From Eubacterium sp. (lineage in GTDB: Bacteria; Bacillota; Clostridia; Lachnospirales; Lachnospiraceae): 15,237 bases of DNA. Every line of letters begins with the position of its first letter. Position 1 is the stretch's first letter. Below are positions 1 through 14,446 of the stretch, in pieces. A program made the translations under genes and the position numbers. The stretch covers positions 1 to 15,237 of the forward strand of contig JAILSA010000155.1 in the NCBI GenBank assembly GCA_024697885.1, read 5' to 3'. The notes beneath the pieces are model-generated. The model did not search any database and was not told the origin of the DNA. It was given only the letters and a program-made list of their open reading frames with translations.

Positions 1-1328
1 TCTAGGGCCTTCCAGAGGCGGTCATCGTCTGCCCCGGCATCCCCCCAAAGGAGGTTGGACCGAATAGAGCCCTGAAAGAGAACTGCCTTTTGCTGGACAA
101 TGGCAATTTTCTTTCTAAGTTCTTTTAGGTCCCACTCCCTAACAGATTTTCCCTCAATGCGAAGCTGACCCTGACTGATGTCATAAAAGCGGGGAAGGAG
201 GTGGACAAGGGTGGATTTTCCCGAGCCCGTTCCTCCGATAATACCTATAGTCTGGCCTTTTTTTACCTGGAGATTGATGTCCTCTAGGGCAGGCTCGCCT
301 CCCTGGCCATAGGTCATGTAGACATGGTCCATAACAATCTGTGGATCCTGGCTTTGAAGCTGGCTCTCCTCCTCCACCTTCATCCCCGCCTCCATTTCAA
401 AAATGTCCTGGATGCGGCGGCCACAGGCTGCTGCCTTGTTGACGCTGATAATCAGGTTGGCAAGCTTTACTAACTCCACCAAAATCTGAGACATATAATT
501 TACCAGGGCAAAGACCTGGCCCTGGGTCAAAATCCCTGCATCCACTCGCAGGGCTCCAATCCAGATCAGGGCAATCATGGCCCCGTTAATAATCAGGAAG
601 GTCAGAGGGTTCATCAGGGCTGAAATTCTTCCCACAAAGGTCTGCATGTCATTGAGGGTCTGGTTTTCCTCCTCAAATTCCTCCACCTCTTTTTCCTGCT
701 TGTTGAAGGCTCGAATCACCCTGGCTCCTGTCAGGTTGTCTCTGGTTCTCCCGGTGATCTTGTCCAACTGGCCCTGAACCCTCTTGTAGAGGGGGATGCT
801 GGCAAACATGAGGCCAAAGACCACCAGGGTCAAGAGGGGAATGGCCACCACAAAGACCATGGCCCCCTTCCAGTCAATGGTAAAGGCCATCACCATGGCT
901 CCTAGCACAATAAAAGGAGACCTGAGAAAAAGCCTGAGCACCAGGTTTACCCCATTTTGCACCTGGTTGACATCGCTGGTCATTCTGGTAATCATGGTAG
1001 AGGTTCCCACCTGGTCCAGGGCGTCAAAAGGCAGGGCCTGGATGTGGGCAAAGAGGTCGTGCTTTAAATCCGTGGCAAAGCCCACCGCCGCCTTGGCTGC
1101 AAAGTACTGGGCCGTAAGGGAGGCCGCCAGTCCCACCGCCGCTAAAAGGAATAAGACCAGGGCCATTTTCCATATATAGGTCATGTCTCCCTGGTCGATT
1201 CCGCGGTCAATAATAGATGCCATGATTAATGGCACAAAAAGTTCAAAGCTAGCCTCTAAGAGCTTGAATAAGGGGGCCAAAATTGCCTCCTTCTTATAGG
1301 CCCTTATGTATCTTAACAATTCTTTCAT
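1..1328 (-). CDS. ABC exporter half-transporter (TMD-NBD), partial at 3' end
   Basis: ATP-driven exporter of the LmrA/MdlB/MsbA-like class, with membrane and ATPase domains fused; it would act as a dimer in the cytoplasmic membrane. 442 codons are visible and the reading frame leaves the window at base 1. Residues 1-300 hold about six hydrophobic spans (around 18-40, 55-73, 135-152, 156-177, 240-260 and 270-293). The NBD starts near 330 with Walker A GGTGSGKS at 365-372 and the Q-loop (VQQ, 411-413), followed by LFQGSIRSNL. The signature motif, Walker B and H-loop lie beyond the window. The ATG follows the stop of the glycerophosphotransferase gene by 3 bp, with a GGGAGA ribosome site inside that gene's end, so it is the fifth gene of the MMPL operon. 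Such proteins often come as adjacent heterodimer pairs, so a partner gene may follow to the left. The substrate is unknown; family assignment is firm. Confidence 0.93.
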   Translation of the reverse strand, partial: MKELLRYIRAYKKEAILAPLFKLLEASFELFVPLIMASIIDRGIDQGDMTYIWKMALVLFLLAAVGLAASLTAQYFAAKAAVGFATDLKHDLFAHIQALPFDALDQVGTSTMITRMTSDVNQVQNGVNLVLRLFLRSPFIVLGAMVMAFTIDWKGAMVFVVAIPLLTLVVFGLMFASIPLYKRVQGQLDKITGRTRDNLTGARVIRAFNKQEKEVEEFEEENQTLNDMQTFVGRISALMNPLTFLIINGAMIALIWIGALRVDAGILTQGQVFALVNYMSQILVELVKLANLIISVNKAAACGRRIQDIFEMEAGMKVEEESQLQSQDPQIVMDHVYMTYGQGGEPALEDINLQVKKGQTIGIIGGTGSGKSTLVHLLPRFYDISQGQLRIEGKSVREWDLKELRKKIAIVQQKAVLFQGSIRSNLLWGDAGADDDRLWKAL

Positions 1329-11785: not shown

Positions 11786-14377
11786 CTATTCCTCCTCCTG
11801 ATTTTGGAAGTTTCTAAGGCTCTCCTCCACCCTTTTTACGTCCGCTTCCAGGTCCCTGGCAGACATGAGCCGACAGCCAGCTCCCCGGATAATCACCTGC
11901 TCTAAACCGTCGGAAGTGGCTACGATAATGTCGTACTTTTGGCCATTTTGGTGGGCGAACTTTTCTATGTACTGGTCCGCCGTCTCCGCCTCCTTGGTAT
12001 AGACCACCTTGATGTTGTGGTAGTCAATCACCTCGGTCTTGTGGTTTTGAACCCGGTAGGCGTCAAAGACCAAAATCAGCTGAAAGCCCTTGTAACCCTG
12101 GTAGTTGCAGAGAATGTCCATAAGCTTTCCCCTGGCTCCGTCTATGTAGTCCCCCGCAAGTTCTGCCAAGTCCTTCCAGGCAAAAATAATATTATAGCCA
12201 TCCACCAACATGAATTTTTCCCGGACTTCCTTTTTCTTAGGGGCCTTGGAAAGCCCCACGGGCTTGGCCTTCACCGACCGACCCCTCCGGCTGGAAATTC
12301 CCTTGTGGGAAATAGGCCCTGACTTTCGGTTGGCAGAGGAGGCTCTGGCAATAATGTCATCGATTTCCTCCACTCCAAGCCAAACCTCTTCTGTTCTCTC
12401 TGAGCCCTCCCAGTCCTCATTCTCACTGGCCTGGTCCTGACCAAAATCCACCTGACAGTGCATATAATCTGCCACCTGGTCCCAGTCCACATAAAAGCCG
12501 GAGCCGTGGGCGCAAAAAACAGAATTGGAAGGGTTTTCTAAATCTCTGTCCGGGTCGTAGGCAAGTTCTGCCACCACCTGGTCCTGCCTCTTGCAAGGCC
12601 GATAACCATCTGGCATGCAGACCAGTCTTCCCCTTCCTCTGGTATAGGTCACCACCTGTCTTGCGTAGTCTCTCATGGCGGCCACCGGTCCCTGGCCCTC
12701 CAGAACGGACATGCCACCCTGGCCCTGGGTCAGGGTAAAATCTGCCTTCATCTGGTCCAAATCTGTCATGGCCCTGCCAAGACTTTCCTCTGGCAATTCT
12801 AAGCGGTAGTGGTAGTAGGGCTCTAGGAGCACATTTTCCGCCTGCATAAGTCCCTGGCGAATAGCCCGGTAGGTGGCCTGGCGAAAATCTCCCCCCTCCG
12901 TGTGCTTGAGGTGGGCCCTTCCTCCTATCAGGGTAATTTTCACATCCGTCAGACTGGACCCCGTCAAAACTCCCACATGATCTCTCTCTGCAATATGGGT
13001 CAAAATCAGCCGCTGCCAGTTTTTGTCCAGGACGTCCTCCTTGCACTGGCTGTCAATGACGATGCCAGAGCCTGGCTCCCCCTCCTCAATCCAGAGGTGG
13101 ACCTCCGCGTAGTGGCGAAGGGGTTCAAAATGTCCCGCCCCGTGAACGCCTCCCCGGATGGTCTCCTTGTAGACTATACTACCCTGGTCAAAGGTCACTT
13201 TTATGTTGAATCGGTCCTCAATTAGCTTCTGGAGAATTTCAATTTGCACATCTCCCATAACCTGGGCCAAAATCTCCTGCTTTTTCTCATTCCAGACAAT
13301 GTGAAGTTCTGGCTCTTCTTCCTCCAAAATCCTGAGTTTGGGAAGCATGGTGGAGACATCTACCTCCGCCGGCAGGACAATGGCATAGGTCAAAACGGCC
13401 TCTAAGACCGGAGCCACTCCCAGGCCCTCACAGCCAAGTCCCTGGCCCGCCACGGTCTCCGTCAGGCCCGTCAGGGCACAGACGCAGCCCGCCTCCACCT
13501 GGTCCATAGTCTCAAAGCGGTTTCCCGAGTAAATTCGAATTTGATTGACCTTTTCTGGATTGTCTGATCCCGGGTAAAAAATCTCCTGTCTGGCGGACAA
13601 AGTCCCCCCTGTCACCTTTATATGAGTCAGGCGGTTTCCCTTGTCGTCCCTGGTAATCTTAAAGACCCTGGCCCCAAATTCCTCTCCGTAGGCAGGCTCC
13701 AAAACCAGGTCGGAAATTCCCTCAAGAAGGTCTTCCACCCCCTGGCCAAGAAGGGCCGAGCCAAAAAAGACTGGGAAAATTTTTCTCTCCCAGACCAGGC
13801 CCTGCATGGTCTCCTGTGAAATCTTTTCCTCCTCCAAAAACTCCTCCATGGCCTCCTCGCTGCCATAGGAAACCTCCTCGTAGAAGTCGGAATTTTTCTC
13901 CTGGGAAAAATCCACCACTCCCTCTCCCAGGTCCCTTTTTAGGCCCCTAAAAATCTCCTCCTTGTCTGTCCCCGCCTGGTCCATCTTGTTGACAAACAAA
14001 AAGGTGGGAATCCCGTGTTTTTCCAGGAGTTTCCACAGGGTCAGGGTGTGGCCCTGGACCCCATCCGGCCCGCTGACTAGCAATATGGCATAGTCAAGAA
14101 CCTGGAGAGTTCTCTCTGTCTCCGCGGAAAAATCCACATGTCCCGGCGTGTCAAGAAGGGTAAAGTTCCAGTCCTTCCAATCAAAGACTGCCTGCTTGGA
14201 AAAAATGGTAATACCCCTCTCCTTTTCCAAATCATAGGTATCTAAAAAGGCGTCTCCTTTATCGACACGCCCTTTTACTCTAATCTTGCCGGTCACATAT
14301 AGGATTTCCTCGGACAAACTGGTTTTACCGGCATCCACTGCCGCCATGATTCCAAGACATATTTTCTTTCTATCCAC
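11786..14377 (-). CDS. Tet(M)/EF-G-like ribosomal GTPase fused to a C-terminal YacP/Rae1-type NYN nuclease
   Basis: 863 residues; GTG start with GAGGTGA just upstream, giving the same N-terminal spacing to the P-loop as Tet(M). GTPase motifs: G1 AAVDAGKTS (12-20), ERGITI (53-58), DTPGH (76-80), NKMD (130-133), GSA (206-208). EF-G-like domains II-V follow to about 680 (domain IV/V marks: GGDFR 495-499, LLEPY 517-521, GYRPC 591-595, FCAHGSG 621-627). A basic linker at 681-720 leads to a NYN/PIN-like domain at 721-855: VDGYN (D726), FDA (D772), ETADQYIE (D801), TSDGLEQ (D823), closely resembling B. subtilis YacP/Rae1, a ribosome-dependent A-site mRNA endonuclease. Tet(M) is about 639 residues and Rae1 about 170, so both parts look complete. 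The tip-loop residues by which Tet(M) clears tetracycline are replaced (RAHLKHTEGGDFR, 487-499). Likely a translation-coupled RNase or ribosome-rescue factor; drug protection is possible but doubtful. Confidence 0.9.
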   Translation of the reverse strand: MDRKKICLGIMAAVDAGKTSLSEEILYVTGKIRVKGRVDKGDAFLDTYDLEKERGITIFSKQAVFDWKDWNFTLLDTPGHVDFSAETERTLQVLDYAILLVSGPDGVQGHTLTLWKLLEKHGIPTFLFVNKMDQAGTDKEEIFRGLKRDLGEGVVDFSQEKNSDFYEEVSYGSEEAMEEFLEEEKISQETMQGLVWERKIFPVFFGSALLGQGVEDLLEGISDLVLEPAYGEEFGARVFKITRDDKGNRLTHIKVTGGTLSARQEIFYPGSDNPEKVNQIRIYSGNRFETMDQVEAGCVCALTGLTETVAGQGLGCEGLGVAPVLEAVLTYAIVLPAEVDVSTMLPKLRILEEEEPELHIVWNEKKQEILAQVMGDVQIEILQKLIEDRFNIKVTFDQGSIVYKETIRGGVHGAGHFEPLRHYAEVHLWIEEGEPGSGIVIDSQCKEDVLDKNWQRLILTHIAERDHVGVLTGSSLTDVKITLIGGRAHLKHTEGGDFRQATYRAIRQGLMQAENVLLEPYYHYRLELPEESLGRAMTDLDQMKADFTLTQGQGGMSVLEGQGPVAAMRDYARQVVTYTRGRGRLVCMPDGYRPCKRQDQVVAELAYDPDRDLENPSNSVFCAHGSGFYVDWDQVADYMHCQVDFGQDQASENEDWEGSERTEEVWLGVEEIDDIIARASSANRKSGPISHKGISSRRGRSVKAKPVGLSKAPKKKEVREKFMLVDGYNIIFAWKDLAELAGDYIDGARGKLMDILCNYQGYKGFQLILVFDAYRVQNHKTEVIDYHNIKVVYTKEAETADQYIEKFAHQNGQKYDIIVATSDGLEQVIIRGAGCRLMSARDLEADVKRVEESLRNFQNQEEE
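11789..12217 (-). other. NYN (YacP/Rae1-like) nuclease domain of the fusion protein
   Basis: Codons 721-863 of the GTPase fusion. Four acidic positions expected for a PIN-like metal site are kept: D726 in LVDGYN, D772 in VFDA, D801 in ETADQYIEK and D823 in ATSDGLEQ. The C-terminal SARDL segment also matches the YacP pattern SAREL. In most Firmicutes this domain is a free-standing protein. Confidence 0.88.
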
Positions 14378-14403: not shown

Positions 14404-14446
14404 ACTTAGTCAAGACTCGCTCGCGAGTCTTGCGCGCCGACTGAGT
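14404..14446. repeat. GC-rich interrupted inverted repeat between metY and the GTPase-nuclease gene
   Basis: Perfect 10-bp arms CAAGACTCGC (14411-14420) and GCGAGTCTTG (14423-14432) with a 2-bp centre, extended outward by ACTTAGT (14404-14410) and ACTGAGT (14440-14446), which pair at 6 of 7 positions after a 7-nt bulge (CGCGCCG). The outer arm touches the metY stop codon. The minus strand after the hairpin reads ACTAAGTAAAATAG, with no U tract. It could be a weak or Rho-assisted terminator of metY, an mRNA 3'-end stabiliser, a leader element of the downstream gene, or a dispersed palindromic repeat. Confidence 0.6.

Follow-up and report, generated by a model that had tools for sequence, protein, structure and literature searches.

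Why are a translational GTPase and a Rae1-type nuclease joined in one protein, and what might such a protein do? The question is raised by a gene on contig JAILSA010000155.1 of a Eubacterium sp. (Lachnospiraceae; assembly GCA_024697885.1), a stretch of 15,237 nucleotides that was analysed over its whole length and is called the window below. In a single reading frame the gene encodes a GTPase with EF-G-like domains followed by a NYN domain of the NYN_YacP family. Genome surveys established that this fused gene is near-core in the Lachnospiraceae and replaces the separate genes. Judged from sequence comparisons, the fused protein may well be a chromosomal, vertically kept, housekeeping ribosome quality-control or rescue factor of Lachnospiraceae and related Clostridia, in which the GTPase would bring the tethered Rae1 nuclease to stalled ribosomes.

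The fusion is real and is not the product of chance or of a chimeric sequence, because GTP_EFTU and NYN_YacP were both present in 120 of the 120 homologues listed (of 7,977 matches; one is the window's own protein) and because the same fusion was found in a genome of the same genus (G108, 99% completeness). Pfam models matched the window protein above their cut-offs along its length: GTP_EFTU, EF-G_D2 (residues 234-310), EFG_III (326-397), EFG_IV, EFG_C and NYN_YacP (723-862, 9e-47). Together with the motifs DAGKT, DTPGH and NKMD, these matches bear out an earlier note on this DNA, which had described a GTPase carrying the G motifs and EF-G-like domains fused to a NYN nuclease.

A fused gene in place of two separate genes

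The distribution of the two halves was determined in a sample of 120 Lachnospiraceae genomes scanned for both, a gene being counted as fused where the halves matched equal or near-equal open frames at neighbouring places. The fused gene was present in 97 genomes, and none of these 97 contained a full-length second NYN or a second GTPase of the same clade. Among the unfused remainder, both genes were separate in five genomes (in one of them, G099, the GTPase lay in broken frames), only the NYN was found in four, only the GTPase in none, and neither in 12. Within the family genomes lacking the fusion, the separate GTPase and the separate NYN were associated (Fisher p 0.006). In G095 the fused gene was apparently cut by contig ends, and in G042 (L264, G042:C93:5000-9200) it was split within the linker into overlapping frames of 711 and 190 aa, possibly by natural re-splitting or by an assembly error. 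Second pieces of NYN among the fused genomes were a contig-edge piece in G039 (140 bits) and a fragment below the cut-off in G076.

A larger family scan, which reported best matches only, gave a NYN match in 264 of 299 genomes; counts were taken on the 120 instead. Six of the 299 genomes had two NYN matches and were re-examined, and in none was there a full-length separate rae1 beside the fusion. The two matches in G130 and in G173 look like pieces of one NYN, G154 carried an additional fused copy, cut and equal in score to the first, G039 had the contig-edge piece just mentioned, and the second match of G278 fell below the cut-off, as in G076.

The two halves were also counted beyond the family. 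In an order sample of 126 genomes, the gene was fused in 39, both genes were separate in 12, the GTPase occurred alone in two (at a contig edge in G377), the NYN alone in 52, and neither was found in 21; here GTPase matches with E above 1e-7 were excluded, being taken as EF-G-like or Tet-like by frame length. Among the genomes with both genes separate, the GTPase of G321 was in broken frames; among those with the NYN alone, that of G335 lay in a 523-aa frame; and two fused genomes (G345 and G318) each had a short second NYN fragment. In a phylum sample (249 genomes), 16 of 16 fused genomes had only the fused NYN and both genomes with an unfused GTPase had a separate NYN. Finally, among 32 genomes reached via named loci, all 13 with the fusion, whose frames were broken in three cases, had one NYN, and 14 of the 19 with an unfused GTPase had one separate NYN. 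The earlier note had asked whether such genomes lack a stand-alone rae1, and throughout the scanned samples no fused genome was found with a separate full-length one. On this ground the idea of an extra copy beside a normal rae1 was rejected for these samples, with the proviso that draft genomes may hide a second copy. Unfused GTPases of the clade in genomes with no detected NYN_YacP were those of L097, L157, L158, L174, L200 and L230.

Named loci (the best 80 of at least 597, ranked against an unfused sequence) place the fusion in Lachnospiraceae (Hungatella hathewayi, Herbinix, Hespellia), in Oscillospiraceae and relatives (Intestinimonas, Pseudoflavonifractor, Flavonifractor, Dysosmobacter, Caproicibacter, Ruminococcus) and in Monoglobus, which gives the taxonomic spread that the earlier note had left to be mapped. 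The unfused GTPase was found in Clostridium weizhouense, Romboutsia timonensis, Orenia, Lysinibacillus, Sporosarcina and Anaeromicropila populeti. In a quick tree of the GTPase (95 rows, with long EF-G and Tet branches), all 60 fused rows and the unfused L172 formed one clade with 100% SH-aLRT, nested among unfused sequences, such that two changes of state suffice; the tree thus indicates that the fusion arose once, within an older set of unfused GTPases. Because the separate GTPases of Lachnospiraceae branch elsewhere, they do not look like recent fissions. In the L172 genome the separate NYN is most similar to stand-alone ones (46% identity), and a fused one follows closely (41%). A tree of the NYN domain (140 columns; 54 of 107 branches open) was weakly resolved, and a single fused clade was neither rejected (p-AU 0.85) nor shown by it.

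The neighbourhoods of stand-alone NYN genes were inspected at four loci (10 frames). One NYN had a SpoU-type rRNA methylase on one side and a sigma factor on the other, an arrangement that recalls the yacO-rae1 operon of B. subtilis, and one lay with a sigma factor; at the two other loci, from the window's own family, neither a methylase nor a sigma factor was among the frames examined. The fused gene of the window has no SpoU-type methylase or sigma factor as a neighbour.

GTPase, nuclease and linker

Sequence comparison sets the GTPase in a clade apart from Tet(M), to which it is related. Between residues 4 and 600 it shares 28-30% identity with Tet(M), Tet(O) and Tet(W) of named plasmids, 31% with a phage-record protein labelled Tet(W), and 27% with C. 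difficile EF-G. The best NCBIfam score was that of the Tet model, ahead of the EF-G models, and neither family reached its curated cut-off (tet_protect, NF012153, 411.7 against 775 bits; EF-G, TIGR00484, 273 against 659.4 bits). In a sequence search of solved structures, Tet(O) came first at 248.2 bits, nearly tied with EF-G at 241.7, and the best structural matches to the GTPase half of an AlphaFold model were EF-G structures (Foldseek); the Foldseek and VIA lists were full of EF-G-like chains and are uninformative on the NYN part. The window protein has the five EF-G-like domains and the C-terminal extension of Tet proteins. Because the alignment with Tet(M) (3j9y) covers the model to residue 634, the extension after domain V sits where the C-terminal extension of Tet(M) lies; most bacterial EF-G rows stop near residue 606.

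The clade also differs at the tip of domain IV, where loop III reads AHLKHTEGGDFR in the window versus YYSPVSTPADFR in Tet(M/O/W), at the same length, so that the loop III sequence of Tet proteins is lacking. Of 60 fused GTPase rows, 59 have KHTEGGDFR (the remaining one is a broken gene); KHT.GGDFR occurs in 25 of 30 unfused rows of the same clade, and KHT in none of four Tet rows. The earlier note had called the GTPase a Tet(M)-type factor, a loose description that is not supported, given the low identity, the score, the separate clade and the different tip. NCBI names some of the fused proteins 'translation factor GTPase family protein'; no family name was found for the unfused clade.

The nuclease half is a recognisable Rae1. 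B. subtilis Rae1 (PDB 5mq8) aligned to the window NYN over Rae1 residues 3-135 (E 2e-23), and NYN_YacP (PF05991) scored 159.6 bits, above its curated cut-off of 24.6. Four aspartates of the window protein (D726, D772, D801, D823) align with D7, D53, D81 and D104 of Rae1, which we take to be the catalytic residues; the earlier note had reported intact acidic residues and had named D726 and D801 correctly. Aspartate occupies these positions in each of the 32 stand-alone NYN rows and in the 79 fused rows, which include the window's own protein twice; the sole departure is one truncated fused row with a gap at the fourth of them. Active-site decay across homologues, which the earlier note had put forward as evidence against its proposal, was thus not seen, and a degraded nuclease was rejected. 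The position of E798 is more variable: Q stands there in 13 of the 79 fused rows, and five of the 32 stand-alone rows have Q, V or I.

Between the halves lies a linker that looks like new sequence, since unfused GTPase frames stop 0-8 residues past the extension match, with neither linker nor NYN, and few residues precede the nuclease core in stand-alone NYN frames (7-24 in 15 of 16, 62 in the remaining one). Measured from the extension profile, the linker is 73-100 residues long in the 120 closer homologues, with a median of 82; in 61 other fused proteins the range is 66-142 and the median 81. Within it is a helix-like motif (window positions 12320-12388), which reads VEEIDDIIARASSANRK in the window protein; other lineages have the form DKELxxIFxRT(Y/F)GPIKR. 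The motif was recovered by two strict patterns in 169 of 181 fused proteins and by a loose pattern in eight more; by eye a variant was visible in 180 of the 181, across several orders. It was not seen in either unfused parent, GTPase or NYN, and among about 3.45 million translated residues of the loci searched the ELxxIFxRTYG form had a single match outside fused frames, in a fused gene that a contig end has apparently truncated (L137, genome G095).

Conservation of the motif in 54 fused homologues was 0.69, versus 0.28 and 0.45 in the flanking linker; in the same set, domain IV and the NYN were the best conserved regions of the protein (mean majority frequency 0.85 and 0.84). The model, built by AlphaFold from a 54-row alignment, is of moderate confidence, with a mean pLDDT of 77.6 and a pTM of 0.54. 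It contains a helix at residues 669-682, and pLDDT falls below 50 at residues 38-60 of the G domain, at 648-668 and 681-716 of the linker and in two short NYN loops. In the 61 wider-set proteins, for which this comparison used a cruder anchoring, the linker is on average acidic up to its middle and basic beyond it. A passive joint would not need such features; the motif is a possible docking site for the GTPase or for a ribosomal protein. The parts of the protein are listed in Table 1.

Table 1. Parts of the fused gene and their positions in the window
Feature	Residues	Position	Strand	Remarks
Whole fused gene		11786..14377	-	Uninterrupted ORF, 863 aa, GTG start
G domain	7-224	13706..14359	-	Pfam GTP_EFTU, 6.1e-49; DAGKT, DTPGH, NKMD, motifs also in fused and unfused relatives
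Domain IV	400-513	12839..13180	-	Pfam EFG_IV
Domain IV tip, first (loop I)	415-424			GHFEPLRHYA; Tet IHIEPNPFWA
Domain IV tip, second	491-499			KHTEGGDFR; Tet SPVSTPADFR
Domain V	516-598	12584..12832	-	Pfam EFG_C
C-terminal extension	600-640	12458..12580	-	GY.PC...SVFCAHG.GF..W..V..YMH
Linker	641-720	12218..12457	-	Conserved helix-like motif at 664-686, then a basic stretch
NYN_YacP / Rae1-type nuclease	721-863	11789..12217	-	Aspartates 726, 772, 801, 823

The fused gene is flanked by an O-acetylhomoserine sulfhydrylase-like gene upstream and a thioredoxin gene downstream, and an AGGTGA element stands just 5' of its GTG start. Between the stop of the sulfhydrylase gene and the start of the fused gene is a perfect inverted repeat (14411-14432) of two 10-base arms (CAAGACTCGC/GCGAGTCTTG) around two bases, which resembles a terminator but has no T run. 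A search of the window with Rfam at the gathering score found no known RNA element, and PADLOC defence models matched it with 0 families at E 0.01, so a defence system was rejected.

What the fused protein may do

Rae1 of B. subtilis is described in a review as cutting mRNA in the ribosomal A site; related work reports that an efp mutant is relieved of its swarming defect when rae1 is lost, and hypothesises that ribosome stalling raises the access of Rae1. Because both modules of the fused protein aim at the A site, they would be expected to act in turn rather than together. The GTPase module would dock at the factor site of a stalled ribosome with domain IV in the A site, and would leave the A site after GTP hydrolysis. 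The tethered nuclease could then enter the vacated A site and cut the mRNA there, leaving a ribosome open to rescue and a destroyed message. A more specific proposal, which is conceivable though we hold it doubtful, is that GTPases with the KHTEGGDFR tip constitute a dedicated ribosome-clearing and Rae1-loading factor. The A site would then be passed to the nuclease via the linker helix, making the fusion a one-protein bacterial no-go-decay machine, and the products of the separate genes (Clostridium, Lysinibacillus) would be partners.

Several observations weigh against a rescue factor built on joint action of the two halves. Each half occurs without the other in other genomes, and in the order sample the separate GTPase and the separate NYN were not significantly associated (p 0.34); strict GTPase-Rae1 pairing was tested and was not upheld outside the family. 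Five of the 19 genomes with an unfused GTPase reached via named loci had no NYN match (L157, L158, L174 from Halanaerobium, L200 from Orenia, and L230), and L157 and L158 are two of the three rows adjoining the fused clade (the third, L099, has a NYN). Such genomes indicate that the GTPase can do without Rae1, and the unfused GTPase probably has a role of its own. The 12 of 120 family genomes missing both halves show that the factor is dispensable there. In addition, the window NYN lacks the C-terminal stretch kept by stand-alone Rae1 and by several other fused proteins: it covers positions 1-142 of the 166 in the Pfam profile, and that of the genus-mate G108 covers 1-137, while G102, G090 and others reach 165. 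The full-length C-terminal part of this profile is not known as a defining feature. The reported efp suppressors of B. subtilis include Rae1 R166P, in a class read as loss-of-function; R166 lies past the aligned part, which ends at Rae1 residue 135, and hence in the stretch that the window protein lacks. Lastly, a literature search, in which subscription papers and most of the Rae1 literature were outside the scope, found no functional study of the fusion among the titles and abstract openings listed, and no binding or cleavage data came to light.

We give some credit, though less than to joint action, to a joining of mere convenience, in which the nuclease would be an ordinary Rae1 that finds the A site itself, the GTPase would perform an unrelated ribosomal job, and the fusion would only fix dose and co-expression. 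Since each half occurs alone in other genomes, mere co-expression could account for the fusion. Both halves also remain recognisable as stand-alone forms, the fused gene of G042 is split into two overlapping frames inside the linker, and L172 has an unfused GTPase and a separate NYN, this NYN not being closest to the fused group; moreover, the linker is of more variable length in the 61 proteins of the wider set. A joint of convenience is, however, harder to square with a helix-like linker motif seen by eye in nearly all fused proteins and absent from the parents, with the narrower range of linker lengths in the 120 closer homologues, and with a fusion that has stayed joined across several orders. 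We consider it very unlikely that the protein processes rRNA or tRNA, with the GTPase as its guide to the ribosome. NYN domains have been proposed to mature rRNA and tRNA (quoted in PMC4342817), but the closest solved relative, Rae1, cuts mRNA, and family genomes with neither the fused gene nor a stand-alone NYN (the 12 of 120) would be odd for an essential processing step.

Protection against tetracycline, or against another A-site drug, using RNase activity, as suggested in 2015, is improbable in our view. Some features speak for it: tet_protect gave the top NCBIfam score, ahead of the EF-G models, Tet(O) was the best sequence match among solved structures in its near tie with EF-G, and the C-terminal extension is Tet-like. 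Loop III of Tet(M) domain IV is held to displace the drug, and a Tet(M) with three altered loop III residues is reported as active; because that variant is active and the loop of the window protein is as long as that of Tet(M), tetracycline protection is compatible with the sequence alone. A 2020 screen reported predicted genes for ribosomal protection in Lachnospiraceae, and activity for one from Clostridium saccharolyticum.

Against drug protection stand a score below the curated Tet cut-off, the absence of the Tet tip motif and the genomic setting. Most family genomes have the gene, and plasmids almost never do: among 72,556 plasmid records, two had a match spanning 80% or more of the protein, one of them a 518-kb Monoglobus replicon. 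Matches of any extent occurred in 1,253 records, and of 25 rows listed in even steps most were Tet(M/O/W/S). Furthermore, five of the 97 fused family genomes (L265-L269) carry a Tet gene besides the fused one, Tet(O)-like in four (94-99.5% identity) and Tet(W)-like in one (96%). These five were weak matches of the GTPase scan, all Tet-like when their sequences were compared, and the true number may be higher. Being present in most genomes, the fused gene would, if it were a good protector, make the whole family generally resistant. Commensal Lachnospiraceae are often susceptible to tetracycline. A Tet(M)-type resistance gene was rejected as the primary explanation on the missed cut-off, the other tip motif, the near absence from plasmids and the Tet genes alongside. 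The suggestion of the earlier note that the GTPase senses drug-bound ribosomes is likewise not supported, given the different clade and tip, the presence of the gene in most family genomes and the five with Tet genes besides.

The Monoglobus pectinilyticus replicon (L128, NZ_OY725736.1, 'plasmid 12', 518 kb, circular) carries the fused gene together with spore-coat genes and may be a chromid or a chromosomal piece. Two 'phage' records, MT835514 and MT835563, covered at least 80% of the protein. In the first, labelled an unverified bacteriophage (L133, MT835514.1 7279-25801), the gene is surrounded by FeoB, MraW, a class I tRNA synthetase, a RelA/SpoT-like protein and a sugar kinase; because these are housekeeping genes, the record looks like mislabelled bacterial DNA, and on this first record a mobile or phage gene was rejected.

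The Lachnospiraceae are a large and abundant family of the gut. If the fused protein is indeed a rescue factor, the only Rae1-type nuclease detected in this family is physically attached to a translational GTPase, and a pathway that cuts mRNA on stalled ribosomes could be tested via a single gene; the fusion would also suggest with what Rae1 is partnered in bacteria where the genes are separate. Some sources name such fused proteins tetracycline resistance proteins (P0041, P0098), and these labels are likely false positives in resistome surveys.

Comparison with known systems

The window protein is a member of an architecture already reported and, as far as seen, uncharacterised, as the earlier note had surmised. 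In Atkinson 2015 (PMC4342817), Tet proteins of ten clostridial species are stated to have acquired a YacP-like NYN RNase domain, and resistance with RNase activity is suggested. The window protein, a Tet/EF-G-like GTPase and a YacP-like NYN in one clostridial protein, has the same architecture. The two accounts differ in that those proteins were known from ten species and read as possible resistance factors, whereas here the gene is near-core, its GTPase belongs to a non-Tet clade, the GTPase tree indicates a single origin, and the stand-alone rae1 is replaced. The near-core status, the single origin suggested by the GTPase tree, the replacement of rae1, the assignment to a non-Tet clade and the linker motif are new here.

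With B. subtilis Rae1/YacP (PDB 5mq8, 5mq9) the nuclease half has the four NYN aspartates in common. Rae1, however, is a small separate protein encoded in the yacO-rae1 operon, whereas the window NYN is tethered to a GTPase, is encoded at another locus and is without the C-terminal stretch. With Tet(M), Tet(O) and Tet(W) the GTPase half shares the five-domain EF-G fold and the C-terminal extension, but it differs in its low identity (28-30%), a score below the family cut-off, other domain IV tips and a rare occurrence on plasmids. The closest likeness is to the unfused GTPases of its own clade (Clostridium, Romboutsia, Orenia, Lysinibacillus, Sporosarcina), which have the same domains, mostly the same tip and, in nearly all cases, the same extension, and which, unlike the fused proteins, end without the linker and the NYN.

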